The notes under the pieces are model-generated. The model had not been told where the DNA came from. It saw only the letters and a program-made list of their open reading frames with translations, and did not search any database. A stretch of 28,731 bases of DNA from a virus, in the IMG/VR virus record IMGVR_UViG_3300009164_003853, positions 1 through 28,731 of that record. One strand, given 5' to 3'. Below, in pieces: positions 4,108-26,605 of this stretch. The position numbers and the translations under genes were made by a program. The first letter of the stretch is position 1. Each line of letters opens with the position of its first letter.

Positions 4108-5625
4108 TCAAGCTGTTAGTTTTCCAATGAGAGTATATCTAGTACCGCTCTCATCTGCTGTTTCGTCTTCAAACAATACTTCTACATTTATTGGAAGCTG
4201 TGTTTTAAACTCGGCCAAGGATGTAACACAGTTGATACGTCCTTCTTTACCAGTTCGATTGTTTGATTGAAACACAAAATGAGAACCTGGTTTAAGTCTT
4301 TTCCAAGATTCCCATTCTTTCATAGGCGGCATGTGTTCGCATATGGTATTGATGGTTAGATCTGCATCTTCAAATCGTTTTGCATTTTTAGTAATCACAT
4401 CAGCATCAATAATTTCTATATTAGCGTGTTCGTCAAATACTCCATGCTTTAATGATCTAACCAATAAATCATCACGATCAAAGCCAGACAATCGTTTGAC
4501 GTCTTTAGCCAAGGTAGTTATTAGTTCAACTGTGTGTTTGCAACCAAACACAATTATCTCAGAATTATTATCTAAAATAGATAGTCCGTTGATAAATTCC
4601 AGCATTTTTGTCTGAGACTGGTCTAATGCACCATTTTCTATTAAATAATTTGCCATATCGGTTTCCTTTGTTTCCTTTGTTTGCTGTTCTAGCAATTTGC
4701 GTAGTTGTCTTGACTCCTCTTCCAACTTCTTCTGCTGTTGTCTTAGTTCCTCTTCCAACTTCTTCTGCTGTTGTCTTAGTTCCTCTTCCAACTTCTTCTG
4801 CTGTTGTCTTAGTTCCTCTTCCAACTTCTTCTGTTGTTGTCTTAGTTCCTCTTCCAACTTCTTCTGTTGTTGTCTTGACTCTTCTTCTAACTTTCGATAA
4901 CGTTTTTCATCTTCTTGCTTTTGTTTTTCTAAATCTCTTTCTTGAATTGCTTCGTCAGACCATGCTCTTCCTACAAGTGTAAATCTAGTGCCTCGATCAT
5001 CAGTTAATTCTTCTTGGTGCAAAACCACAGCATGTTTTGGAAGTTGTTTTTTAAAATCTTCTATAGTATCAACACAATTAACATGTCCTTGAATTCCATA
5101 CATATTATTAGATTGAAATGCAAAGTATGCATCGTCACGCACCTTTGACCAATTGGGCCAATCGTTCATTGGAGACATGTGTTCGCATGAGGTATTTATG
5201 AACAACTTTGCTGTGCTGTAAATTCTTGGAAAATTAACAAATGCATCGCCTTCGATCAGTTTGACTTTTTTATTTTTCTTCCAAAAGTTATTCTTTGCAA
5301 TGTGTATTACCTGTTGGTCAAGATCAATTCCGTGTATACTTTTTACTTTCTCGCTCAATTTAGGTATAATAATGCTGCCATACCAACAACCAAATATAAC
5401 CACTTCACAGTTGCTGTCCAAACATCCTGTTTGATCTATCATGGACACCAATTGTGTTTTGGCAGCAAACTGATTTCTACCAAATGAGTCTTTGATATCA
5501 TTTGCCAATTCCGGATTATCTCGCATGGTAGCAAGGATGCTTTTCAGGAGAGTTAGGTCTACAGAAACGTTGTTCTGTAAATTTAAAACATTGCCTATAA
5601 ACTCTAAATCTTCTGTGTCAATCAT
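4108..5625 (-). CDS. Tandem methyltransferase-like protein with central coiled coil, 505 aa
   Basis: Two related Rossmann/SAM-methyltransferase-like domains flank a coiled coil. Domain 1 (about 70-222) has VVIFGCWYGS, HGIDLDQ, IEGDAF and SCEHMSPMNDW. Domain 2 (about 350-505) has IIVFGCKHT, SGFDRDD, IDADV and ICEHMPPMKEW. Both end in a 'RGTRFTLVGRAW/SGTRYTLIGKL' strand, so this is an internal duplication. The glycine loop of domain 2 (FGCKHT) is degenerate and may not bind SAM. Residues about 225-325 form a charged coiled coil with five 11-residue QQQKKLEEE[L/S]R repeats. I start at the ATG at 5625, whose ATGA overlaps the carbamoyltransferase stop, rather than at an upstream ATG inside that gene. 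It is probably co-translated with the carbamoyltransferase. The substrate is unknown. Confidence 0.7.
   Translation of the reverse strand: MIDTEDLEFIGNVLNLQNNVSVDLTLLKSILATMRDNPELANDIKDSFGRNQFAAKTQLVSMIDQTGCLDSNCEVVIFGCWYGSIIIPKLSEKVKSIHGIDLDQQVIHIAKNNFWKKNKKVKLIEGDAFVNFPRIYSTAKLFINTSCEHMSPMNDWPNWSKVRDDAYFAFQSNNMYGIQGHVNCVDTIEDFKKQLPKHAVVLHQEELTDDRGTRFTLVGRAWSDEAIQERDLEKQKQEDEKRYRKLEEESRQQQKKLEEELRQQQKKLEEELRQQQKKLEEELRQQQKKLEEELRQQQKKLEEESRQLRKLLEQQTKETKETDMANYLIENGALDQSQTKMLEFINGLSILDNNSEIIVFGCKHTVELITTLAKDVKRLSGFDRDDLLVRSLKHGVFDEHANIEIIDADVITKNAKRFEDADLTINTICEHMPPMKEWESWKRLKPGSHFVFQSNNRTGKEGRINCVTSLAEFKTQLPINVEVLFEDETADESGTRYTLIGKLTA
4708..4872 (-). repeat. Five tandem 33-bp repeats encoding a hendecad coiled coil
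   Basis: Five consecutive nearly identical 33-bp units lie within the double methyltransferase-like gene and encode QQQKKLEEE[L/S]R five times. Units differ by few bases (for example CTGCTG versus CTGTTG), so they are recent copies prone to slippage. Eleven-residue periodicity favours a long, slightly right-handed helical rod separating the two catalytic-like domains. Confidence 0.9.
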
Positions 5626-7133
5626 TTTTTTACCACAAAGTCTTTTATTACCAACAGATCTAATCCACATTTTTTAAATGTGTTCACAGCATCTTGAGGA
5701 GTTTCCACAATGGGTTCCTGACAGTTAAAACTGGTGTTAAGCAACATCGGGATGTCTGTGAGTTTATAAAACTCATTTATTAAACTGTAATAATGATTGT
5801 TAAATTCTTTGGTAACAGTTTGAATTCTTGCAGTACCGTCTACATGTGTTACTCCCGGAATCTTGTCTGATATCACAGGCATGATCCTTGACATAAACGG
5901 ACTGGGTTGATTGGTGTCAAAGTAGTCTTTGTAGTGTTCATCTAGAACACTAGGCGCAAAAGGTCTAAAGTCTTCACGCATCTTGACAACACTGTTAATG
6001 ATATTTTTAATATCTGGGTTTCTAGGATCGGCTAAAATACTTCTATTACCCAGGGCTCGATTGCCTGATTCACTTTTACCTTGAAACCAACCAACAATGC
6101 CCCCGTCAGCAATTGCCTTGGCCACTTCAACGTAAATTTCTTCCATTGGCTTTTGCTGGTAAGACAGTCCTTCGAATATGGCAGAGTCTACTTCATACTC
6201 ACCGCCCGAATAGACTGTGGGAACGTGAACGATGTCATTTAACACATAGTCGGCATGCATATAGGTTCCAATGGCCTGACCTTCATCTCCTGCCGCAGGC
6301 GGCACATGTACATTTACATAATGCTTGGTAAATGCTTCATTCATATAGCCGTTGTAGGCAACTCCGCCTGCAATACATAAATTGTCAGAAGTTTTAAGAG
6401 GATATACAAATTTCTTAACAAGCTCAATGGTAACATACTGTAGTGTAAATGCTACATCTTTTTTAGGAACACGCCTTAGAATATCTCTAGCATTGTTAGG
6501 AAGTTTGTGATTGGGATTTTCCAAGTACTGATGAATCATAGCATACACTTCATCGTTGTACTGGCCAAACCCCACTAGTCCCATTACTTTGCCTGCATCA
6601 AGGTATCCAAAACCAAGATCCTGAGCTAGTCTATTCCAAAGACCGCCTATTGACATGTTCTCAGACAAGTTTGTAATTAGGCCAGTCTTGTCAATGAAAA
6701 TGCAATTGAATTGCCATCCTCTTCCGTCTATTGCCAGTATGTCACTTTCTTTAAACTGTGAACTTAGAAATGCGTATGCAGCATGACTCTGATGATGGTC
6801 GATATAGTAATAGCTGTCTGTGTGCAATCGGTCCCATAGATTGGTTGGATTAAATTTTAAAAAATCTGTATCCGGTAGTGTTTCTTGAAGCAGGTCTAAT
6901 ACAAATTCCTGACCTAGGTTAGAAACAGTAAATGCAAATACCTCATCTTTAGTGGTACTTATATAGTTAGGTATGAAGTACTCATTAAAAAACTCTCTGC
7001 TGTACGTGGGATCGTGAGGATTTTTTCGATTGAGATTGTGTTTTCTTCGGTTGTGTCTTTCCACTTGATTGTGAAATACACCGTCATAGGTATTGTGATC
7101 GTGAATGTTTACTGCGACAGAAAATATTTTCAT
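5622..7133 (-). CDS. Carbamoyltransferase, NodU/CmcH/TobZ family, 503 aa
   Basis: Enzymes of this family transfer a carbamoyl group from carbamoyl phosphate, through carbamoyl-adenylate, to a hydroxyl of a sugar or antibiotic. Conserved motifs are clear. HHQSHA at 113-118 belongs to the N-terminal Kae1-like domain (metal and ATP binding), with LAIDGRG near 133. The C-terminal YrdC-like part has GWFQG at 348-352, RALGNRSILADPR from 359, REDFRPFAPS at 386-395 and LNTSFN at 465-470. The length is slightly below the usual 550-600 residues. Its ATG sits in an ATGA overlap with the radical SAM gene upstream, and its stop overlaps the methyltransferase-like gene. Glycan or small-molecule decoration is the likely role; the acceptor is unknown. 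Confidence 0.93.
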   Translation of the reverse strand: MKIFSVAVNIHDHNTYDGVFHNQVERHNRRKHNLNRKNPHDPTYSREFFNEYFIPNYISTTKDEVFAFTVSNLGQEFVLDLLQETLPDTDFLKFNPTNLWDRLHTDSYYYIDHHQSHAAYAFLSSQFKESDILAIDGRGWQFNCIFIDKTGLITNLSENMSIGGLWNRLAQDLGFGYLDAGKVMGLVGFGQYNDEVYAMIHQYLENPNHKLPNNARDILRRVPKKDVAFTLQYVTIELVKKFVYPLKTSDNLCIAGGVAYNGYMNEAFTKHYVNVHVPPAAGDEGQAIGTYMHADYVLNDIVHVPTVYSGGEYEVDSAIFEGLSYQQKPMEEIYVEVAKAIADGGIVGWFQGKSESGNRALGNRSILADPRNPDIKNIINSVVKMREDFRPFAPSVLDEHYKDYFDTNQPSPFMSRIMPVISDKIPGVTHVDGTARIQTVTKEFNNHYYSLINEFYKLTDIPMLLNTSFNCQEPIVETPQDAVNTFKKCGLDLLVIKDFVVKK

Positions 7134-7987
7134 TGATTGCCTACTTGTAATTTTTGCAATTCCTCTTCTTTAAGTATCTCAATGATTCGATTTTTTTGTG
7201 CTGTGGGCCGTTTTGGAATAATGTCATAGCACCGTTGACAATATTTTTCAAACTCAAATAGTTTGTAATTCATCATCTTATCAATGTTTTCTTTGGTAAC
7301 ATCAAACTGTCGTGAACCGTTAATTACTTTTCTGCTACAATGACGAATTTTTTGTATTTCAAAATCAAACACAGGTACTAGAGGAAACTTGGCACACACC
7401 TTGCGGTTAAGCTCGGGTGCCTGTACAGGTTTATGATCTGTGAAAAAGTCCGGAGACCTTGAATTGTATTCTTTGAATTCGGTGTTTTTATGATCAAGCA
7501 CAGATAGGTCGTACTGTTCTCTATACTTAAAATAATTAGGAGTCTTTATGATTAGATTGTAATTATTTTTATCGTTTTCTTTAAAGAATTCAAAGTTACC
7601 TAATTTTTCAATGCGTTCTTCGTAGAAGTCTAAAACCAAGTGTTCGATGTAAATGATCTCTGGATCTTCTAATATGTCTGGATAAAATTTACGGACTAGA
7701 GAGTTAGACAAAACTTGAATTACTAGATTGGGATGTTTTTTAATCTCGGCAATGACTTCTCTTAGATTCTTAACAAGGCCGGGCTCGCCACCTAGCAAGC
7801 AAATGCGTGTTTTGTAAGGACTCAGTCCATCTAAAATAGTTCTTACAAAGTCCATGTCTACATGGAGATTCCTCATCTCAAGAGTCCATGCAGTACAATA
7901 GTAACACGACTTATTACAAGACTTTGTTAGATAAAAGTCAACGGTGCGATAGTCTGATCCTTTTAGATCAGCCAGTGTTTTGATCAT
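7130..7987 (-). CDS. Radical SAM protein, 285 aa
   Basis: The radical SAM iron-sulfur motif CxxxCxxC is present as C24-C28-C31 (CNKSCYYC). It is followed by a GGEPG motif (66-70) that normally contacts SAM. More Cys lie towards the C-terminus (CAKFP, HCSRK, KYCQRCYD), suggesting one auxiliary cluster of SPASM/twitch type. Proteins of this class start reactions by making a 5'-deoxyadenosyl radical; the substrate cannot be read from sequence. The stop overlaps the carbamoyltransferase start as ATGA, implying translation in a fixed ratio and possibly a shared pathway. A CCAGGAC-like ribosome site precedes the ATG at 7987. A TATAAAAATA at about 8005-8014 (minus strand) resembles a late promoter but has an extra base. 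Confidence 0.9.
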   Translation of the reverse strand: MIKTLADLKGSDYRTVDFYLTKSCNKSCYYCTAWTLEMRNLHVDMDFVRTILDGLSPYKTRICLLGGEPGLVKNLREVIAEIKKHPNLVIQVLSNSLVRKFYPDILEDPEIIYIEHLVLDFYEERIEKLGNFEFFKENDKNNYNLIIKTPNYFKYREQYDLSVLDHKNTEFKEYNSRSPDFFTDHKPVQAPELNRKVCAKFPLVPVFDFEIQKIRHCSRKVINGSRQFDVTKENIDKMMNYKLFEFEKYCQRCYDIIPKRPTAQKNRIIEILKEEELQKLQVGNQ

Positions 7988-8029: not shown

Positions 8030-9106
8030 TTAAACAAAGGATGTTGGTATTTTGCTTGGGCCATTGGTGAGAATATCAAGAAATATATCATTTAGTGATA
8101 GTAATTGATCTTTTGTTTCTTCGTCGTTGAGTACATTGTCTATAATATAATTAATTAAAAATTTATGGACATTGGTTTCAACTTCGAGGTTCTGTATTTG
8201 CCTAACATCCTTTATCCAATATCTTGACGCTATATGGCTTATATTGCTGATTTTATTTATATTGCTGATTTTTTTTAAATTTAAATCAGAAACGTATGCA
8301 TCAAAAACTAAATTTAAATCTCTATGACATTTGACATAATCATCGGTTCTGGTTGGATAATTATTTTTCTGCCATTCTACAACTGCTTCAATGACTGTTG
8401 ATTTACTATCAATTAATTTTCTGATTGGCGCTTCTATTATTTGTTCATTCTTTACAAAGTTTACAATTCGTGCGTAATCTGGCCTAGTATCTAACAATTC
8501 TAATCCAATATACGTGTCTCGTACATATTTTAGTCCCTTGCCAATTGTCACCACAAAATCTGGGCGATGGTCTAAGAATTTCCATTCATCTTCTTCCCAG
8601 TTCTCTAATTTTTTAGGAAAGCATAGTACATACGACACATCTATTCGATATTCTAAACATAGCGCAGCAAAGGTATTGGTAAACATCCCGATCTCTAGAA
8701 TTGCATTGGTATAATGTTCGTCTATCTTAGTAGGATCTATTTGTGAATAATTTCGCCCTTTACTGATCATATGTCGTTGAAATGGATTTGGTTGATCCTC
8801 AACTCGTTGTGTAAATATCAATAGGTGCGAGCAAGTTACTATGTTGTGAAATCTTGGTAATTTGTCGCCAGGTCTATTATAATCGTCTTGGTTATATTCG
8901 TGATAGTAGGCTTTTTTATAAATTTTGTTTTTTAGATCTTGCTGATCGGGGCCTAGTACATGAACTTTATACGGCATAAAATTATTTTTTGACGGAGTTA
9001 CCTTCCAAGTTCTTTCTAGCAAATCGCTTATAAGAGATTCCGGTATATCTGCATTTTGATCGTACTCTTTTACATACTTGTATTTTTTATAAATGTCGTC
9101 GATCAT
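8030..9106 (-). CDS. Nitroreductase-like domain fused to a virion-type domain (NTR-X order), 358 aa
   Basis: Residues 1-215 look like a divergent nitroreductase (FMN oxidoreductase) fold. LLERTWKVTPSKNNFMPYKV corresponds to the 'aA..aPS..N.qpw.f' entry. ILEIGMFTNTFAALCLEYRIDVSY corresponds to the 'd.g.a..nl.l.A...Gl...' helix. PDFVVTIGKG is the final strand. Residues about 220-350 are a second domain, 'WQKNNYP......YVKCHRDLNLVFDAYVSDL...IASRYW'. This resembles the 'CRRDvg.ivDA...DL......A..Y' helical domain I associate with marine T4-like virion proteins. The same domain is at the N-terminus of the upstream gene, in reversed order. The gene follows that neighbour after a 1-base gap, with a GGGAGA ribosome site. 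The nitroreductase assignment is moderate and activity is unproven. Confidence 0.65.
   Translation of the reverse strand: MIDDIYKKYKYVKEYDQNADIPESLISDLLERTWKVTPSKNNFMPYKVHVLGPDQQDLKNKIYKKAYYHEYNQDDYNRPGDKLPRFHNIVTCSHLLIFTQRVEDQPNPFQRHMISKGRNYSQIDPTKIDEHYTNAILEIGMFTNTFAALCLEYRIDVSYVLCFPKKLENWEEDEWKFLDHRPDFVVTIGKGLKYVRDTYIGLELLDTRPDYARIVNFVKNEQIIEAPIRKLIDSKSTVIEAVVEWQKNNYPTRTDDYVKCHRDLNLVFDAYVSDLNLKKISNINKISNISHIASRYWIKDVRQIQNLEVETNVHKFLINYIIDNVLNDEETKDQLLSLNDIFLDILTNGPSKIPTSFV
8057..8449 (-). repeat. Domain X copy B (virion-type helical domain), C-terminal copy
   Basis: This stretch encodes residues about 220-350 of the 358-aa protein and is closely related at both DNA and protein level to 9906-10280. 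Both begin NE[QP]IIE and share EWQKNNYP, KCHRDLNLVFDAY, HKFLINYIIDNVL and GP at the end. Copy B is 393 bp and copy A 375 bp. The 18-bp difference is accounted for by a local tandem duplication at 8241-8276. The near-identity indicates a recent duplication. Confidence 0.88.
8241..8276 (-). repeat. 18-bp tandem duplication inside domain X copy B
   Basis: Two 18-base units starting ATATTGCTGATTTT (plus-strand reading) lie side by side, at 8241-8258 and 8259-8276, differing at one base. They encode the duplicated NINKIS segment that is absent from copy A. The insertion keeps the frame and falls in a likely inter-helix loop. It looks like a recent slippage event. Confidence 0.85.
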
Positions 9107-9107
9107 A

Positions 9108-10283
9108 TCATTCTCCCGAATGGAATGTTGTTATGGTGCTTACACTTGGTTTATTTTCCCAATGCATACGTTTGGGATTTTTGCTGTTGCTTCGAAACCA
9201 ATCTCGCACATTTGCTACATAACCTAGTTGTACAATCATCAAAGGCTGTTCTGTAATACAAGGCAGAGAGCTCCAATCTAGCCCGTGCTTGTTGCCATTC
9301 TTTCTATATACTCCAGCTTGACCTGCCCATTGCCATTCCGGGAATGATCTTATGTAGGATATTCCTAGATCGTTTTCTAAACATAGGCCTGCCAGTGCTT
9401 GTACAAACATCCCAACTTCAATGCAGGTTAATTTGGTATTGCATAGTTCTCTGAATCTTTTTTCGTCGGTTTGTGTAAATCTGCTGTAGTCGTCGTGCAG
9501 GTTGGAATATTCTTTAACAAAATTATTTGGTTCTGCAAGTCTTTGTTCAAACACCAATACCCATGGTGATATTCTTCTATCCTTGCCCTCTTCATCGAGA
9601 ATATATTCTGTTATGTTTTGCACTCCATTAAAAGATTTAAATTCTCCGTTGTGATTTGCATCATCCCAGTGATTCACTGATCCTGTTTCGTATAAGGTAC
9701 AAATCTGTCCAACGATTTCTTTTTCTTTTGGATTGTCGGGGCCGAACGCATGAATCTTAAAAGGAAACAAATTCTGCTTAGAAGGACTAATATTAAGTGT
9801 GCGCTCAAGCAAATTTTCTATTAGTTCCTTGCTTGGCAGTTTTTGCTGATCCCAGGCTGCACGAATCTGCCTTCTTTTCGAATATAGATTTTCAATCCCT
9901 GTTGTCGGTCCATCGGTAAGAATATTAAGAAATACATTGTTTAGAAATAGTAATCGATCTTTTGTTTCTTTGTCTTCGAGTACATTATCTATAATATAAT
10001 TAATTAAGAACTTATGGACGTCAGTTTCAACTTCGAGATTGTGTATTTGTCTAACAGACCCTACCCAATATTTTGATGCTATATAACTTATACTACTGAT
10101 TTTATGTAAATTTAAATCAGAGATATATGCATCAAAAACTAAATTTAAGTCTCTATGGCATTTGGCGTAATCATTGGTCCTATTAGGATAATTATTTTTC
10201 TGCCATTCTATAACTGTTTCGATGACAATCTGTCTGCTTTCAGTTAATTTTTGAATCCCTGTTTCTATTATTGGTTCATTCAT
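9108..10283 (-). CDS. Virion-type domain fused to a nitroreductase-like domain (X-NTR order), 391 aa
   Basis: Residues 2-126 are copy A of domain X (IEWQKNNYP, KCHRDLNLVFDAY, IASKYW). Residues about 130-391 are a divergent nitroreductase-like domain homologous to the N-terminal half of the downstream protein. It has LLERTLNISPSKQNLFPFKI, EVGMFVQALAGLCLENDLGIS and PLMIVQLGYV, and ends in a basic tail. The domain order is the reverse of that in the neighbour. Its ATG overlaps the stop of the classical nitroreductase upstream (ATGA). The order along the transcript is therefore NTR, X-NTR, NTR-X, which suggests tandem duplication of an NTR-X unit followed by a shift of gene boundaries. The substrate is unknown. 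Attachment to virions through X is only a possibility. Confidence 0.65.
   Translation of the reverse strand: MNEPIIETGIQKLTESRQIVIETVIEWQKNNYPNRTNDYAKCHRDLNLVFDAYISDLNLHKISSISYIASKYWVGSVRQIHNLEVETDVHKFLINYIIDNVLEDKETKDRLLFLNNVFLNILTDGPTTGIENLYSKRRQIRAAWDQQKLPSKELIENLLERTLNISPSKQNLFPFKIHAFGPDNPKEKEIVGQICTLYETGSVNHWDDANHNGEFKSFNGVQNITEYILDEEGKDRRISPWVLVFEQRLAEPNNFVKEYSNLHDDYSRFTQTDEKRFRELCNTKLTCIEVGMFVQALAGLCLENDLGISYIRSFPEWQWAGQAGVYRKNGNKHGLDWSSLPCITEQPLMIVQLGYVANVRDWFRSNSKNPKRMHWENKPSVSTITTFHSGE
9906..10280 (-). repeat. Domain X copy A (virion-type helical domain), N-terminal copy
   Basis: It encodes residues 2-126 of the 391-aa protein and is the partner of the repeat at 8057-8449. It lacks the 18-bp insertion and otherwise aligns along its full length. 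The two copies are direct repeats about 1.8 kb apart, so recombination between them would delete one nitroreductase-like region and fuse the rest. Confidence 0.88.
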
Positions 10284-11014
10284 AAAATTTTTCCATTTAA
10301 TGTTACTCTAATATTTTTTTCAAAACTGGGAAACCTCCAATGTTCATCCGGCTCGCCGTTTCGAACAGCTTCATGAACATCTTTGTTTAATGCTTCAGCG
10401 TGTAATCTACGATCAACATCAACATTTGGATATCCAATCCCCACTAACAGTTTTATTCTATTATTTACACCAAGCAATTGTCTAACTGGATCTTCATCTA
10501 TGGCTGAGCATATACCAGTTTTATATCCTAACAGGGTCGCAGACAGTATGAGTTCACCTACGCTAATCCCGATAGAAACATTTATTTGTTCTTCGTATAG
10601 TGTCATTGCATTACTATCTCTATTCTCTTTTGCGGCAGTGTGTGTTGCAGATCTTGTCCTGCCCTCTTCTCTTACATATACGAATAAAACATTTGCAAGT
10701 ATTTGAGAATTTTTTACAGACAGTGTGTCATCTTGCCAGTATTTTCCGTTTTCGTCAACTCCAAACCTTCTTGTTTGTCCAGGTGATCTGCATGTAAATT
10801 TTTTTGTATTATCGTACACCTGTTTAATTATAGACTGATCAGTGTATATCTTCAATGAATAATGTGTTTCATTTTGTTTAGAAGGAGAATTAGCAGCAGC
10901 GTATATCAGTGTTTTTAAATCTTGTTCTGGAATAGTTTTAGATAGGTCGTAGTTGCGCTGTGCTCGTTGTGCTATGTCTACTGCTTTTTTTATTTCTTCA
11001 TGCATATAATTCAT
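10280..11014 (-). CDS. Nitroreductase-family FMN oxidoreductase, 244 aa
   Basis: Nitroreductase-family enzymes use FMN and NAD(P)H to reduce nitro groups, quinones or flavin, or to oxidise azolines, aromatics or reduced flavin in specialised pathways. The signature features are present: AAANSPSKQNETHYSLKIY (residues about 33-51, FMN-binding entry), a central SIGISVGELILSATLLGYKTGICSAI helix-turn, and LLVGIGYPNVD near 200. It is the most classical of the three adjacent paralogues. Two ATGs (11014 and 11005) are possible and neither has a strong ribosome site. I keep the first because it overlaps the aminotransferase end by 17 bases. The downstream stop overlaps the X-NTR start. The substrate is not predictable. 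Confidence 0.85.
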   Translation of the reverse strand: MNYMHEEIKKAVDIAQRAQRNYDLSKTIPEQDLKTLIYAAANSPSKQNETHYSLKIYTDQSIIKQVYDNTKKFTCRSPGQTRRFGVDENGKYWQDDTLSVKNSQILANVLFVYVREEGRTRSATHTAAKENRDSNAMTLYEEQINVSIGISVGELILSATLLGYKTGICSAIDEDPVRQLLGVNNRIKLLVGIGYPNVDVDRRLHAEALNKDVHEAVRNGEPDEHWRFPSFEKNIRVTLNGKIL

Positions 11015-12077
11015 TACGTAAAGTGTTTATAATATTTTTAATTTCGTCTTCTGTTAACCATGCATGTATTGGCAATGATAAAATAGTTTCAGAAACCAAT
11101 TTAGAATTTACACAATCGTCTTTTCTATAGGCAATGTTGTTGTACATTGTGTTTATGCTCAACGACTTTTCATAATGAACCGAAGCACGAAGTGCATTTT
11201 TTACTCGATCCCTAGTTTGTTTATCCTTGAACCTTAATGTATATTTGTGATAATTATGATTTAGACCCGGTGAATCTGTTTGTGTATACACTGGCAAATC
11301 TTTAAACGCTTCGTTGTATTGACGAGCAATCTCTTGACGTTTTGTCTGAGTCTTTTCCATACTTTGCAATCGTAGGTCAATGACTCTTGCATTGAGAACA
11401 TACATTCTAGAATTGAAACCCAGCATTTCAAAGTCGTCGCCTTTGCCATGACGTCTAATTTTTTTAACTAACTTTGCCTGTTTTTCGCTGTCAGTTAATA
11501 ATACGCCACCACCGTTAATGCCTGCAATGACTTTGTTGCTGTTAAAACTATACACGCTACAATCTCCAATGGTGCCTGCCTTTGTGCCATGTAGACTTGA
11601 TCCTAAACTTTGTGCCGCATCTTCAATAAATGCAATGCCTTTTTCTTTACAGAACTCTTTAATCGCAGTAGTATCTGTCATATTGCCAAAAAGATGAACA
11701 TACACAACAGCCTTGACCTTTTCGCTGTACATTCGTTTAACACTGTCTAGATTCATGTGGTAAGAGTCTAGATTGATGTCACAGAATACAGGTGTTGCAC
11801 CTACTGCACTAATACAGGCCGAAGACGATATCCAGGAAAAATCAGTTACCAGTACTTCGTCACCCGGTCCTATGCCGTAACTCAGTAATGCAAAGTGCAA
11901 TGCATCTGTGGCATTTGCCACTGATACAGCATACTTTTTACCTACACGCTCTGCAAAGGATTTCTCCCACTGTTCATTGTTTTCGTAGTTGAGCTGTGAC
12001 ATAAACTTGTCGAATAACTCTAGGTATGCTTGTTTATTTTCTTGGTACTCTCGATCCCAACCGTCATATGATGTCAT
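10998..12077 (-). CDS. DegT/DnrJ/EryC1 family PLP aminotransferase, 359 aa
   Basis: These fold-type I enzymes usually convert nucleotide-keto-sugars to amino sugars, and more rarely act as dehydratases or make aminocyclitols. PLP features are visible: VANATDALHFAL (about 53-64, phosphate cup), DFSWISSS near 79, IEDAAQSLGS with D153 and Q156, and the Schiff-base lysine K182 in SFNSNKVIAG. The GGGVLLTD and RRHG motifs follow. The length is normal. It sits between a radical SAM gene (ATGA overlap upstream) and a nitroreductase (17-base overlap downstream). The neighbouring glycosyltransferase-like and carbamoyltransferase genes favour amino-sugar synthesis for a glycan, but the donor and product are inferred. 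Confidence 0.93.
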   Translation of the reverse strand: MTSYDGWDREYQENKQAYLELFDKFMSQLNYENNEQWEKSFAERVGKKYAVSVANATDALHFALLSYGIGPGDEVLVTDFSWISSSACISAVGATPVFCDINLDSYHMNLDSVKRMYSEKVKAVVYVHLFGNMTDTTAIKEFCKEKGIAFIEDAAQSLGSSLHGTKAGTIGDCSVYSFNSNKVIAGINGGGVLLTDSEKQAKLVKKIRRHGKGDDFEMLGFNSRMYVLNARVIDLRLQSMEKTQTKRQEIARQYNEAFKDLPVYTQTDSPGLNHNYHKYTLRFKDKQTRDRVKNALRASVHYEKSLSINTMYNNIAYRKDDCVNSKLVSETILSLPIHAWLTEDEIKNIINTLRNELYA

Positions 12078-12820
12078 AGTGATTCCAATTTTTTATGTGA
12101 TAACTTTCGCCAGTCGTTAAGACTCTTAGATTTATATCCCCAATACTCTTTTTTAACTCGCTCTTGAATATATTTTTTATCAGGACTTGTTAGTTGAAAG
12201 TCTACGCTTTTTCTAAGCAAGGGATTGTCTGCGCTAAAACCTCTATTTGTGTTTATGAATAATAGACTAAAATCTTCTTCTTTGGCTATTTCTATCGCAC
12301 GATCTATTTCGTGCTCGTTGTAGCCAAAAATAATGTATTGCCAGACTATGGTATGTCCTGCATCCCTGCCTTGCTTCATTCGTTTCCAAACATCGTCAAA
12401 GTTTGAACCTATCCTGTACAATTCACTCTTGTTGTCAATTCCGTCTACACCAAAGTACCATGCGTTTTCTCCCACGCCATAGCTGTAGGCTTCATCCCAC
12501 CAAGCATCACTTTTGCCACTTCCAACGGTTGCAATTCTAATTGCCTTGCCTTGCCCGCTACACATTTTTAAAATGTTTAAGAAATTAGGATGATAGATAG
12601 GATCAGATATCTGTCCGCAGAAAGTGATACCATATTCGTAATAATCAAGTATTTTTTTAAAATTATGTTCTTCTAGATCAAAGGATCTACGAATCTGTTC
12701 TTGACTTGTTGTTTTTTGACGTATGCATTGAGGACATTTGAATACGCATCGATATGATGCATCAACATTGGGTCGAACAAACCGTTGATACTTTACATAT
12801 TCATCAGTTATTCTTGCCAT
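12074..12820 (-). CDS. Radical SAM protein, 248 aa
   Basis: The CxxxCxxC cluster motif is C25-C29-C32 (CVFKCPQC). It is followed by a TFCGQISDPIYHP segment in place of the usual GGEP, as in some radical SAM/SPASM proteins, and by WYFGVDGID and a C-terminal helix-rich part without clear auxiliary Cys. I start at the ATG at 12820, preceded by GGAGCAGG, rather than at an upstream in-frame start that would extend deep into the preceding gene; the overlap is then 17 bases. The upstream gene encodes a free SPASM-like domain, so the two may together make one split radical SAM/SPASM enzyme. The stop overlaps the aminotransferase start. The substrate is unknown. Confidence 0.85.
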   Translation of the reverse strand: MARITDEYVKYQRFVRPNVDASYRCVFKCPQCIRQKTTSQEQIRRSFDLEEHNFKKILDYYEYGITFCGQISDPIYHPNFLNILKMCSGQGKAIRIATVGSGKSDAWWDEAYSYGVGENAWYFGVDGIDNKSELYRIGSNFDDVWKRMKQGRDAGHTIVWQYIIFGYNEHEIDRAIEIAKEEDFSLLFINTNRGFSADNPLLRKSVDFQLTSPDKKYIQERVKKEYWGYKSKSLNDWRKLSHKKLESL

Positions 12821-13154
12821 TGGCCTGCTCCTTGATTTCAGCTCTTTCCTCGGCCCTAACTGCATCTTTATCTATATCAACACCGCATTTCTTTTTACAC
12901 ATGTACGAAGCATTTTCAGGCCTAGTTAACAGTGTTTGAAAAAAGTTTTCCCATTGATCTGATGTAAAAATATCTTCTAATCTTTCGTTATTAGATAACA
13001 ACAGTTCTTCATCCTTTAGACCGCACATTTTAATATACCGATAAACCGGAGGATCATCTAACCAGCAACAGGGCAACATAAATCCGTCTGATGTATAAGC
13101 TGCTCCTTTGTTATCATTTGAAGTGTAGTTTAAACACTTTGGGTTTATTTTCAT
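12804..13154 (-). CDS. Free-standing SPASM/twitch-like iron-sulfur domain protein, 116 aa
   Basis: The sequence resembles the C-terminal auxiliary-cluster domain of radical SAM/SPASM proteins with no radical SAM core. It has an N-terminal CLNY, then TSDGFMLPCCWLDDP (the 'g.v.PCC..d' motif), CGLKDEE, a 'lediFtSdqWenFfqtl' stretch typical of SPASM regions, and CKKKCG near residue 88. A Lys/Glu-rich helical tail follows (ERAEIKEQ). It begins in an ATGA overlap with the glycosyltransferase-like gene and overlaps the radical SAM gene downstream by 17 bases. A split enzyme in which this subunit binds auxiliary 4Fe-4S clusters for the adjacent radical SAM protein is the simplest reading, but it is inference. 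Confidence 0.7.
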   Translation of the reverse strand: MKINPKCLNYTSNDNKGAAYTSDGFMLPCCWLDDPPVYRYIKMCGLKDEELLLSNNERLEDIFTSDQWENFFQTLLTRPENASYMCKKKCGVDIDKDAVRAEERAEIKEQANGKNN

Positions 13155-14005
13155 TTGAGTTTCTCTATAGCATTTAATATTGGGGCAACATCGAGCTTTT
13201 TAATATCACGTTTATAGTATACGCTGCCACCATCGTGTATCGATTGGTCTCTAAGATAGATCAATCCTTTTCCGTAGTACTTGCACTCTTGTACGATTCT
13301 AGGAGCAGGATCAAACGTTTCTTTGACATAGACATAGGTATCAAAAATACCCAACAAGTTTTCTATTGGTGCAAATACATTATTGTTTTTAATGTTAACA
13401 TATTTTTCACGGTATGTCAATATCCCATTGTCTGGAAATTGATCAATAAATTTTTCTGCTGTTGCATAGTATTTGTCATTGGTTCCCTGAAATAGGTATT
13501 TGAATTGAATGTTATCAGTATGAGGTTTGTATATGTCAAAATAGATGGTTTTTTCAAAATGTTCGCCAACACCGTTGGAATAAACTTCTGTGTCACATAA
13601 ATCAATGATTTTCTCCGGAGAGTAAAACTCCACTGCTTTGGGATAGCCTTCGGGATGATTTTCGGAATACACAGAAATTATTTTGCCTGCAAATAATTTT
13701 CGCAGTGTAGATTGTTGCGTTTCTTGATATCGGGCAAACTCTTGCCAGCTTGAGGTCATCATGCTTCTGCCCATGATCAGCGTTATGTCGTCTTTTGCCG
13801 GAGTGAAATCATCAAACACTACATTTTGGTTGTGAATGTACTTGTTGTCAATGGCGCTGATGTAATTTTCTTTTGAGAATCTTCTATGACCAACAATAAC
13901 CAATCGGGCTGCTATGCCTAGAGAATTTAGATACGAACAATGTTCGTAGCTATAATACAATAGACCGTCAACGGGCTTGCTGGTGCATACAATATTTAAA
14001 GTCAT
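13151..14005 (-). CDS. Glycosyltransferase-like protein, 284 aa
   Basis: The protein has the alternating strand-helix pattern of a GT-B-like fold: MTLNIVCTSKPVDGLLYYSYEH at the start, ARLVIVGH, DDITLIMGRSMM and KIISVYSENHPEGYPKAVEFY in the first half. The second half has KYLFQGTNDKYYATAEKFID, FDTYVYVKETFDPAPRIVQECKYYGKGLIYL and a final helix. The 'FDPAPR.vQEc.yyGk' region occupies the place of the donor-binding Glu-rich motif of family GT4-type enzymes, but the match is loose. No membrane segment is present. It is the first gene of the minus-strand biosynthetic run, 91 bases from the divergent plus-strand operon, with GATAAATA about 20 bases upstream. An alternative is a phage-specific protein with no transferase activity. 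Confidence 0.55.
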   Translation of the reverse strand: MTLNIVCTSKPVDGLLYYSYEHCSYLNSLGIAARLVIVGHRRFSKENYISAIDNKYIHNQNVVFDDFTPAKDDITLIMGRSMMTSSWQEFARYQETQQSTLRKLFAGKIISVYSENHPEGYPKAVEFYSPEKIIDLCDTEVYSNGVGEHFEKTIYFDIYKPHTDNIQFKYLFQGTNDKYYATAEKFIDQFPDNGILTYREKYVNIKNNNVFAPIENLLGIFDTYVYVKETFDPAPRIVQECKYYGKGLIYLRDQSIHDGGSVYYKRDIKKLDVAPILNAIEKLK

Positions 14006-20757: not shown

Positions 20758-21747
20758 TTAATTTTCTGGTTTAATTCTCTGTGCGATCGGTTGCCAAACT
20801 CGGCGCAGGCCAATCATACCATTCTTTAGGCCTTGTTCTGTTTGCCATTCTGGTGTAGCAAACATGAAGTTTTCTTTAAACTTTTCTTGTACTTCGGGAT
20901 GCTTGCTGGCTGCATTAAATTGTTCTCTATACCATTTGGCAATTTCTGGATCAGTGCCGGGCGGCAGAACAATGTTCCAACAACCGTGTATGCTTAGACC
21001 CGGTACAAGATCTTTCATTAATGGTGCTTTCTCTAAACCAGCTAGAGGAAAATCGTTGGCAATACCAATTAGTTTTAATTTTCCACTTTGAACATGAGGA
21101 TAGCCTACAGTAACTGGGGTAACACCAAATTCAGCATGTCCGCCCATGACATCTAGCAGAGCTTGAGCTGGACCTTTGTACATAGGAGTTTCTACCATGT
21201 CGCCGCCTGCGACTTTGAGATTGGTAGTTAGGTATTCAACTGCTAGTTTGTGACCAGCGCCGCCAATGGCAATGTTGATCTGTCGGTCTTTTTTCTTGAT
21301 AGCATCTATGAGTTCTTTGGGAGTATTGATCTTGCTACTAGGATGTGCCCAAAATGCCAATGGGCTTCTTGCAATATGTGTTACATGCACCGCCTGCATC
21401 ATGTCGTATTTGGCCACCTGCGGATACCAAACTTCCGGGGTGACCCATGCACTTTGACAAGCAGGTACTGCTAGAGTCTGTCCATCATTGGCTGTTTTGT
21501 TAAACAAATGATTCATAGCAATGTTTCCATCTGCGCCAGGCATGTGCTGTGGTTGGAATTTTACTCCAGGATTGTTTTGCTCCACAACACTGGCCAACAA
21601 TCTAAAACTAATTTCGTTGCCTGCACCAGGGCCGTTAGGTAGTATAAAATTAACTGTGCCTCTGGGTTGCCATGCTTGTGCGGCAGTAGTAACTAGGGCT
21701 ATGGCCAATACCATTAGGCCTTTCGTGAACTCGCTTTTAGTCAGCAT
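20758..21747 (-). CDS. Bug/TctC-family periplasmic solute-binding protein, 329 aa
   Basis: A clear Sec signal peptide (residues 1-25, MLTKSEFTKGLMVLAIALVT then TAAQA before W26) indicates export. The mature part has the family layout: FILPNGPGAGNEISFRLLA near the start, PGADGNIAMNHLF, VTHIARSPLAFWAHP, LIDAIKKKDRQINIAIGGAG, MYKGPAQALLDVMGGHAEFG, GYPHVQSGKLKLIGIAND and DLVPGLSIHGCWNIVLPPGTDPEIAKWY. Bug/TctC proteins bind carboxylates for tripartite tricarboxylate transporters and are greatly expanded in proteobacteria. No TctA permease is in the window. Base composition looks richer in G+C than its neighbours, consistent with acquisition from a host. AAGGAG lies 8 bases before the ATG. A phage gene of this type may alter host uptake. 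Confidence 0.9.
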   Translation of the reverse strand: MLTKSEFTKGLMVLAIALVTTAAQAWQPRGTVNFILPNGPGAGNEISFRLLASVVEQNNPGVKFQPQHMPGADGNIAMNHLFNKTANDGQTLAVPACQSAWVTPEVWYPQVAKYDMMQAVHVTHIARSPLAFWAHPSSKINTPKELIDAIKKKDRQINIAIGGAGHKLAVEYLTTNLKVAGGDMVETPMYKGPAQALLDVMGGHAEFGVTPVTVGYPHVQSGKLKLIGIANDFPLAGLEKAPLMKDLVPGLSIHGCWNIVLPPGTDPEIAKWYREQFNAASKHPEVQEKFKENFMFATPEWQTEQGLKNGMIGLRRVWQPIAQRIKPEN

Positions 21748-24337: not shown

Positions 24338-26605
24338 TTATGAAACAGCATAACCAGGAACTACATAAGTGACTCCAGCAAGTTTGATTTGAAAGTAAAT
24401 GCTTGGAGTTGCTGGCAGTGGGCTAGCTATACCAGCTGCACCAACTGTAGTCTGTGTAGCAGTAACAAGGTCTATAAGTCCAGTACCGTTGGGGTTAATT
24501 TCAAGGTCTGCATTGGTAGCTGTAGTAGAGATTATGTTGTCTGCTATTCTAATCATTCCTGTATTAAATCCATCACCAGCCGTTACTGCTCCTGCTGTTA
24601 AAGCAAGATCACCTGTTGCCATTGTAATGTTTCTGTTTGAGGAAATAACCATCGCTGTGGCAAAAGTGCCGTCGCTGTCAGCTGTTAAAAATCTAATAAG
24701 ACCTGAGGCTCGTCCAGCGACCGTACCGCTAGCAGCCTCAACTCGAATTTGTGCAACTGAGTCTGTGCTGGTACCATTAAAAGCGGTAAATTCAATCCTT
24801 CCGATATGATCATTTGATTGTACTCGTAGAGGAGAAGCTGCGGTGCCTCTTGATCTGAACCACCTCCAGTTAACTGTTGAATTCGCAACGTTGGTATAAT
24901 TATCACTTCTAATTGGAATGTTGGATTCAGAAGTGCTGACTGTTCTTATTACACCTTCGGTTAATGAAATTGATGTAGATGTAACATTGCCTGTTAAGTC
25001 TCCCGTTACATTGCCAGTTAGATCTCCAAAGAATTGTCCTTCTACGGCGTCAACTAATTTTGATGAATCATCAGCAAACACAGAACCTCTCAATTCTCCT
25101 ACCACTGACCCGATTAGATTGCCAGTTACGTTACCTGTTACATTGCCAGTTAGATTACCAGTTACTGTACCAATTGTGGCATTACCAACAGTTAATCGAT
25201 TAGTTCCAGGATTGAACTTAAGGTTACTGTTAAGATTGAGTAACTTGTCGCCGCTGAGTGCATCAAAGAAAGAAATATAATGATCTGCACTAGTACCAGT
25301 GGTATTAACTGTGATAGTGCTGGCATTAGAACCAGCAGAAGTAGTAATAATACTTCCGCCTACTGTGGCTCCTGCTGGAAGGTTTAGTGTAGAACCGCTG
25401 ACACTGATGGCCACATTGCCAATCCAAAGAGCATTGGTTCCTTCTGCAAGATACAGCTTACTGTATTTCTTAGTAAACGTACCAATTGAAGCTTCTTCAC
25501 TAACGCTGGGAAGTATGTTCCTAGTTGTTAATTCGTTGTCTATTGTGACATCTGAATTAAATGTTATCGACGGAGTTACAACAATACCCGAACTATCGGC
25601 ACTGTCAATTAAATTTGTAAAAATGTTAGCTGTGACATTGGATGCATTAATAGTGGTTGCATTCAGTGTACTTAAACCCAGCGTGTTAGTACTTGGCTGA
25701 TAGGTTAAACTGGTGTCTGTTCGAATAGACTGGTTACCAAAAGCTGCTGAACTAAAATTAATATAATGTATTGATGAAGAACTATTGGTGTCAACTAATG
25801 AAACAGTTGACGCTACAGTGGCAGTAGCGGCCAATGTTGCAGTGTCTGCGTTACCAATTAAAGATCCTCGTAGAACTCCGCTTTGGCCGTCTACTAACAT
25901 TGTGCTGTCGTTGGCAAATACTGAACCTAGTAGATCCCCACTGAATGTACCATTGCTGGTATTGACCATTACTGTAGAATCTTGGGCTATGACATTACCA
26001 GAAATCGTAATATTATAAGTGTCACCTTCGTTTATACCCAGCGGTTGGCCACCGATAGTTGATCCAGTTGGAAAGTTAATAGCTGTTCCAGTGGAAGTAA
26101 GTACTGCATTACCTAGATAAATCGATGAACCGCTTAGATATAAATCTCTAAATCTGTTGGTGCTACTGCCAATATCGTAGGCTATGTTTGTGTCCGGAAG
26201 TATGTTTCCCTGTGCTACAAAGTTACCGTAGACAGTGTGTGTATCTGCTTCAATGATAATTCCAGAGTCTTCTGCCCAAACACTGCCCTTGAAGCCTTGA
26301 TCAGCTGAAATTAGACCTTGATAATTTGACAAATTCTGTGCTACTGTGGCCTGCAATCTACCGCCGATATATTGAAATGCAATACCACTGTGCTGACTGT
26401 TATCTGTAAAGGACAGTCCTAAAAATAATTCTGCTGTGGCATTCTTGGAATCTGCCACACTGAACGATGTTACCGGTACACCACCTGCTGTTGAACCGTT
26501 ACCTACAAAAACCGCGCCGGTCGTTGTATCGTAGACTAATTCGCCTACTAGCGGAATATTGTTCAGCCTATCAGCTGTGGGTCCTCTTCTAATCTGTAAA
26601 GGCAT
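24338..26605 (-). CDS. Tail-fibre/virion structural protein with repeated modules, 755 aa
   Basis: The N-terminal MPLQIRRGPTADRLNNIPLV and GELVYDTTTGAVFVGNG form the module that opens many marine T4-like structural proteins. The rest is Gly/Ser/Thr/Asn-rich beta sequence with internal repeats. A module 'ILPdtniayDIGSstnrFrdLYL...ygnavl...t..LP.GstiGG' occurs near residues 134-190 and again near 364-420. 'GSV[FW]A[DEN]DS...vd...g...G.l.GN' occurs three times. 'LTGNVTGN'-type repeats fill about 480-540. The C-terminus (ATPSIYFQIKLAGVTYVVPGYAVS) may be a tip or trimer end. No chaperone or peptidase domain is seen. AGGAG lies 6 bases before the ATG, behind a CATAAATA late promoter. A host-contact role is likely but inferred. 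Confidence 0.85.
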   Translation of the reverse strand: MPLQIRRGPTADRLNNIPLVGELVYDTTTGAVFVGNGSTAGGVPVTSFSVADSKNATAELFLGLSFTDNSQHSGIAFQYIGGRLQATVAQNLSNYQGLISADQGFKGSVWAEDSGIIIEADTHTVYGNFVAQGNILPDTNIAYDIGSSTNRFRDLYLSGSSIYLGNAVLTSTGTAINFPTGSTIGGQPLGINEGDTYNITISGNVIAQDSTVMVNTSNGTFSGDLLGSVFANDSTMLVDGQSGVLRGSLIGNADTATLAATATVASTVSLVDTNSSSSIHYINFSSAAFGNQSIRTDTSLTYQPSTNTLGLSTLNATTINASNVTANIFTNLIDSADSSGIVVTPSITFNSDVTIDNELTTRNILPSVSEEASIGTFTKKYSKLYLAEGTNALWIGNVAISVSGSTLNLPAGATVGGSIITTSAGSNASTITVNTTGTSADHYISFFDALSGDKLLNLNSNLKFNPGTNRLTVGNATIGTVTGNLTGNVTGNVTGNLIGSVVGELRGSVFADDSSKLVDAVEGQFFGDLTGNVTGDLTGNVTSTSISLTEGVIRTVSTSESNIPIRSDNYTNVANSTVNWRWFRSRGTAASPLRVQSNDHIGRIEFTAFNGTSTDSVAQIRVEAASGTVAGRASGLIRFLTADSDGTFATAMVISSNRNITMATGDLALTAGAVTAGDGFNTGMIRIADNIISTTATNADLEINPNGTGLIDLVTATQTTVGAAGIASPLPATPSIYFQIKLAGVTYVVPGYAVS

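Follow-up and report, generated by a model that had tools for sequence, protein, structure and literature searches.

Two overlapping genes of a virus probably encode the two subunits of one radical SAM enzyme with a single auxiliary cluster. They lie in a phage operon within a 28,731-base virus record, the whole of which is referred to here as the window. One gene, RS, encodes a radical SAM core and the other, SP, a small Cys-containing protein. We infer an RS/SP heterodimer in which SP would hold the auxiliary cluster and have an electron role. As judged by sequence comparison, the conserved two-gene radical SAM/twitch enzyme is a variant of the single-chain auxiliary-cluster enzymes, split over two overlapping neighbour genes, apparently in many ocean viruses. 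Because the domain sits in the same chain as the core, the role of SPASM/twitch auxiliary clusters is difficult to test. If SP is a natural separate subunit, the auxiliary cluster could be added, removed or swapped. The analysis also suggests that a large phage radical SAM family, comprising at least 589 relatives of the barrels encoded ahead of SP, goes by the annotations of two unrelated proteins, one labelled 'hypothetical'. A cultured isolate with an RS/SP pair is available in the SAR11 phage Mosig on Pelagibacter HTCC1062.

The SP and RS genes

The features of the pair and of the gene upstream are as follows.

13151-14005, minus strand: 284-aa conserved partner without Pfam match, glycosyltransferase-like by eye only (38 of 57 loci)
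12804-13154, minus strand: SP, putative 116-aa twitch/SPASM-like free subunit (Cys conservation, homology, Pfam, AF2)
13134-13136, minus strand: codon of SP C7, invariant in the alignment
13065-13070, minus strand: codons of SP C29-C30, the PCC motif (sequence and alignment)
12897-12899, minus strand: codon of SP C86, invariant in the alignment
12885-12887, minus strand: codon of SP C90, invariant in the alignment
12804-12820, minus strand: 17-base SP/RS overlap, with a Shine-Dalgarno sequence just upstream, within the SP 3' end
12074-12820 (alternative start 12865), minus strand: RS, 248-aa radical SAM core without auxiliary domain (PF04055, 70 homologues)
12725-12748, minus strand: CVFKCPQC (CX3CX2C) of RS, expected site of the SAM [4Fe-4S] cluster (sequence)
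12599-12622, minus strand: FCGQISDP of RS, with the fourth invariant Cys inside (alignment)

The original prediction described a 116-aa protein with PCCW and CKKKCG motifs but no CxxxCxxC, followed by a gene carrying a radical SAM core, with 17 bases shared between them. Each of these observations holds. The ORF translation of SP contains MLPCCW and CKKKCG and lacks CxxxCxxC. RS contains CVFKCPQC and scored 29.8 bits against Pfam Radical_SAM PF04055 (cut-off 29.5), which together with the CX3CX2C motif places it in the superfamily. The overlap is 17 bases for an RS start at the ATG at 12820, and would be longer for the in-frame ATG at 12865. The sequence AAGGAG precedes the ATG at 12820 inside the 3' end of SP and, with the overlap, suggests translational coupling.

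Distinct homologues of RS (70) and SP (71) from marine virus sequences were aligned. C7, C29, C30, C86 and C90 of SP were invariant in 72 of 72 sequences, which also keep AAYT, G24, LPCCW, W68 and F71-F72, while C44 is not conserved. The pattern CX16GX4CC...CX3C was found in every SP homologue of the window's clade. The Cys residues of RS, read from 12820, are at positions 25, 29 and 32 (the core), 68 and 87. The three core Cys were kept in all homologues that cover them (69 of 71 alignment rows), and F67 to P74 were invariant in 71 of 71 except for I71 (94%), giving the family form FCGQ(I/L)SDPIY. When placed against N_Twi_rSAM, FCGQISDP occupies the usual GGEP position of radical SAM proteins. 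Both genes are under purifying selection, with dN/dS against close homologues of about 0.05-0.15 for SP and 0.05-0.07 for RS, calculated from unsaturated dS only. One RS of the window's clade (L049:6261-8636) is fused to about 530 extra residues.

SP as a twitch-like domain

A seven-Cys motif is the mark of a SPASM domain with two auxiliary clusters. SP has five conserved Cys, not seven, and is thus closer to a one-cluster twitch domain than to a complete SPASM domain. Both kinds of domain extend a chain at its C-terminal end, SPASM typically holding two clusters and twitch one; BtrN binds the twitch cluster through four Cys and MoaA through three (PMC9012708). SP resembles twitch domains in its homology to a SPASM-type C-terminal domain and in having Cys for three or four ligands. 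It departs from them in not being an extension of the same chain: among the matches listed, SP is separate for 156 partnered RS and fused in 7. The original proposal of a radical SAM core with a free SPASM-like subunit is thereby upheld in its outline by fusion homology, co-occurrence and co-variation, with 'twitch-like' replacing 'SPASM', and the Cys pattern points to one predicted auxiliary cluster.

Fused homologues had been named beforehand as something to look for. Seven single-ORF RS-SP proteins were found (L054, L057, L068, L071, L075, L079 and L014; all seven by HMM, most by BLAST), with no SP-RS fusion among the RS sequences listed. SP aligned with their C-terminal domain at 28-32% identity (BLAST, E about 1e-7) and the window's RS with their barrel at about 30-36% identity (E to 8e-34). 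The SP alignment superposes PxC, GxxxPCC and CxxxC. These alignments identify SP as a homologue of the SPASM/twitch domain that ends the chain of single-chain radical SAM enzymes. The marine phage fusions are thus related to the window pair in both halves, with the Cys aligned, but are one chain with the barrel first and SP second.

The AF2 model of SP alone had a pLDDT of 87. It had no structural match in the PDB at Z>=2, which counts against the two-subunit reading, and matched three small phage proteins in BFVD at E<=0.0033. A search of PDB sequence profiles with SP gave no credible match. The model of the fused L057 homologue (pLDDT 83, pTM 0.83) aligned with PDB enzymes over residues 1 to about 340, covering both domains, at Z 13-18. 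The matches included SuiB (Z 18.0, 3.9 A over 263), DesII (Z 16.1) and BtrN (Z 13.3), along with SkfB, MoaA, anSME, BlsE and PqqE. Since the fusion superposes over both domains, the natural place of SP would be the SPASM/twitch position on the barrel. SP may therefore dock on RS at the twitch position, as modelled through a fused protein about 30% identical to the window pair. BtrN, MoaA, DesII, SuiB and SkfB are single chains that join the barrel to an auxiliary-cluster domain, as in the model of the fused homologue. In contrast, the auxiliary domain of the window is a separate protein encoded upstream, its RS has FCGQISDP in place of GGEP, and its SP has five Cys rather than seven.

In the proposed enzyme, RS would form a TIM-type barrel carrying the SAM-binding [4Fe-4S] cluster on CX3CX2C, and SP would be a separate small twitch subunit with one auxiliary [4Fe-4S] cluster on four of its five invariant Cys. 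The docking site on RS would correspond to the C-terminal SPASM/twitch position of BtrN, MoaA, DesII or SuiB. RS would cleave SAM, the 5'-deoxyadenosyl radical would abstract a hydrogen atom from the substrate, and the SP cluster would then bind the substrate or accept its electron. Overlapping, coupled translation may keep the two subunits balanced.

Pairing and gene order in marine viruses

Scans of IMG/VR recovered 79 and 78 loci with the two proteins, reducing to about 70 distinct pairs. RS was downstream of SP in 263 of 266 SP occurrences, a count that includes repeat fetches of one contig, and the remaining three were at contig ends. The distance matrices of SP and RS were strongly correlated, both for pairs with SP upstream (SP>RS; r=0.97, permutation maximum 0.38, after thinning) and for those with RS upstream (RS>SP; r=0.83, permutation maximum 0.28, after thinning). 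The correlation is partly inflated because of shared phage ancestry. A tblastn search of phage records with SP gave no match at E<=1, though Mosig_00085 is a divergent SP homologue. The closest matches in genome contigs (L186 and L187) were short contigs in Flavobacteria bins, and L186 is probably viral rather than cellular because it has phage-fibre-like ORFs.

The order of the two genes was also compared. Among the matches listed, which give counts and not frequencies, 82 RS were SP>RS, 65 were RS>SP and 9 had SP on both sides, while 7 were fused RS-SP, 7 were at contig edges and 3 had no partner. The nine both-sides cases are tandem RS-SP-RS-SP arrays with overlapping ends (e.g. L278, L292, L294, L313 and L316). 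In the RS tree, whose deep forks are open, the SP>RS order makes up one well-supported clade (99/94) and recurs in another part of the tree (100/94). It had been argued that the reversed order, with SP first, excludes a simple gene fission. That argument fails, since both orders exist, two or more RS clades contain SP>RS, and a tandem array that lost its outer genes would be left with SP-RS. Fission followed by ordinary gene rearrangement would explain the SP>RS order. The pair has a common ancestry with canonical RS-SP enzymes and, once separated, RS and SP would be free to change places, the tandem arrays offering a simple route to the order in the window.

A different origin was considered in N_Twi_rSAM (NCBIfam NF033640), in which the twitch domain lies ahead of the barrel, like the window order, but in one chain. 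Of 37 of these phage contigs, 31 contained members above the cut-off. RS scored 22.3 bits against the model (cut-off 170) and is not a member, and the window's SP had no match. SP as a detached N-terminal domain of N_Twi_rSAM, which would give the SP-first order, was rejected at an hhalign probability of 2.6%, no better than chance.

Five loci (L056, L059, L064, L066 and L147) have two tandem, diverged SP genes ahead of a single RS. Together with fusions of SP to the 284-aa protein, these suggest that SP may pair with proteins in place of RS or in addition to it, which we count against the two-subunit reading. The arrangements RS-SP, SP-RS, SP-SP-RS, RS-SP-RS-SP and PP-loop-RS plus SP could reflect a modular marine phage system of separate, reshuffled barrels and auxiliary-cluster subunits, in which a single barrel may work with one or another twitch subunit. 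We regard this as a speculative extension with a small chance of being right; if true, changing the subunit could change the reaction or the substrate.

The surplus of SP genes at the SP-SP-RS loci could also mean that SP is a free Fe-S electron carrier, which reduces or re-oxidises RS in passing, and perhaps other radical SAM enzymes of the island too, and is no stable subunit. Electrons have been shown to pass from one radical SAM enzyme molecule to another in the case of PapB and QueE (PMC10470005), and a single contig of these phages can have up to nine matches to the N_Twi model. However, SP is homologous to a docked domain, it is found specifically with the RS family at closely matched distances, and the same phages hold fused RS-SP proteins. 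We therefore consider a free carrier unlikely.

Somewhat less likely still is that SP serves the upstream 284-aa protein as a docking or substrate-binding domain, or forms a three-protein complex with it and RS, the cluster being no longer needed. Most loci in the clade of the window have the 284-aa gene adjoining SP, and in four distinct contig groups (L023, L030, L032 and L033) the protein forms the N-terminal part of a fusion with SP (about 404 aa), which suggests a three-protein assembly. However, the five SP Cys are invariant even in these fused forms, many loci have SP-RS without an adjacent 284-aa gene, and elsewhere the fusion partner of SP is RS.

That SP is a non-Fe-S protein, for instance a zinc-binding one with a fortuitous SPASM motif match, is very improbable. 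The window's SP falls below the cut-off of Pfam SPASM PF13186 (13.5 against 21.5 bits) and finds no PDB fold on its own, but 14 of 16 SP family members matched the model at E<=1 (best 1.7e-6), and in relatives the domain is fused C-terminally to the same barrel, in the usual SPASM/twitch place.

SP and RS are both genuine genes. RS reads in the +1 frame relative to SP in one subclade, where the overlap is 17 bases or similar, whereas a second subclade uses the other frame, with an overlap of ATGA or about 22 bases. A MazG-like ORF lies between SP and RS in L134, L144 and L145, and a small lipoprotein-like ORF in L056 and L147. The overlap and +1 relation in the window's clade might have come from a one-base sequencing error or from a dying single gene read as two, but the clade-dependent frame and the intervening genes rule out a sequencing frameshift, and the split in about 70 distinct contigs, the strong purifying selection on both genes and the opposite order of the fused relatives leave artefact or decay a negligible probability. 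A programmed frameshift joining SP and RS was rejected, as stop codons and relative frame vary among homologues.

Operon context and candidate substrate

SP and RS belong to a run of minus-strand genes (14005-13151, 13154-12804, 12820-12074, 12077-10998, 11014-10280 and 10283-9108) with successive overlaps of 4, 17, 4, 17 and 4 bases. Further features of the window are as follows.

10998-12077, minus strand: DegT/DnrJ/EryC1 aminotransferase, 4-base overlap with RS (PF01041, E 5.7e-84; 42 of 57 loci)
10280-11014, minus strand: nitroreductase-family protein (PF00881, E 5.4e-13)
8030-9106 and 9108-10283, minus strand: two paralogous proteins of a putative nitroreductase-like cluster (one BLAST cluster with 'NTR232' proteins)
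7130-7987, minus strand: second radical SAM protein, 285 aa, single chain, with Cys C-terminal of the barrel (PF04055; 19 of 57 loci)
5622-7133, minus strand: NodU-type carbamoyltransferase, downstream in the same gene run (PF16861, E 1.2e-65; PF02543)
20758-21747: phage-borne gene for a TctC-type periplasmic solute-binding protein (PF03401)
24338-26605: fibre-like/tropism-determinant-like protein, 755 aa, with an Mtd N-terminal domain (PF18454)

Across 57 non-redundant loci, the commonest neighbours were DegT (42), the 284-aa protein (38) and nitroreductase-like proteins (38 and 28), followed by N_Twi_rSAM (37), a QueC-like PP-loop protein (35) and the second radical SAM protein (19). DesII acts alongside a DegT aminotransferase. 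BtrN oxidises an aminocyclitol (PMC9012708). The chemistry of BtrN, the setting of DesII and the DegT neighbour of RS together suggest oxidation and then transamination of a sugar-like metabolite. This substrate class, with a surface or virion glycan as its destination, is a tentative proposal, possible but not the likelier outcome. By this route a sugar- or cyclitol-like substrate would be oxidised by RS/SP, transaminated by the DegT enzyme and then carbamoylated or transferred.

A similar row of genes is found in Pelagibacter phage Mosig EXVC030M (00083-00089), which encodes, like the window, the 284-aa homologue (Mosig_00083), RS (Mosig_00084), SP (Mosig_00085), a hypothetical protein, a DegT-type aminotransferase, a radical SAM protein and a carbamoyltransferase. 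The Mosig pair differs from that of the window in its RS-then-SP order, and its annotation goes no further than 'putative molybdenum cofactor biosynthesis enzyme' and 'hypothetical protein'. Phage islands of the same kind appear in the passages considered from two reports, one placing radical SAM cassettes and glycosyltransferases close to the tail fibres, in the host recognition cluster of pelagimyophages (PMC7029224), the other counting 12 radical SAM genes in the genome of a T4-like marine virus (PMC5332604). Those passages do not describe the split SP/RS pair, and no split radical SAM/SPASM enzyme was described in the literature searched, a partial coverage of the field.

Several minor observations follow. 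At L279:2541-3917 a QueC-like PP-loop ATPase is fused to an RS barrel and followed by a free SP. On contigs with multiple matches to the N_Twi_rSAM model (up to nine in G003, G005, G013 and others), several are full-length and in tandem, forming radical SAM gene islands. The proteins of 8030-9106 and 9108-10283 have no Pfam match of their own at the cut-off, and their nitroreductase-like label is a provisional one drawn from sequence clustering. They share a segment (KCHRDLNLVFDAY...) located towards the C-terminus of one and the N-terminus of the other, as if the domain order had been swapped. The gene at 4108-5670 encodes a methyltransferase-like protein in which a repeated coiled-coil stretch (RQQQKKLEEEL) links two halves that are alike and each methyltransferase-like.
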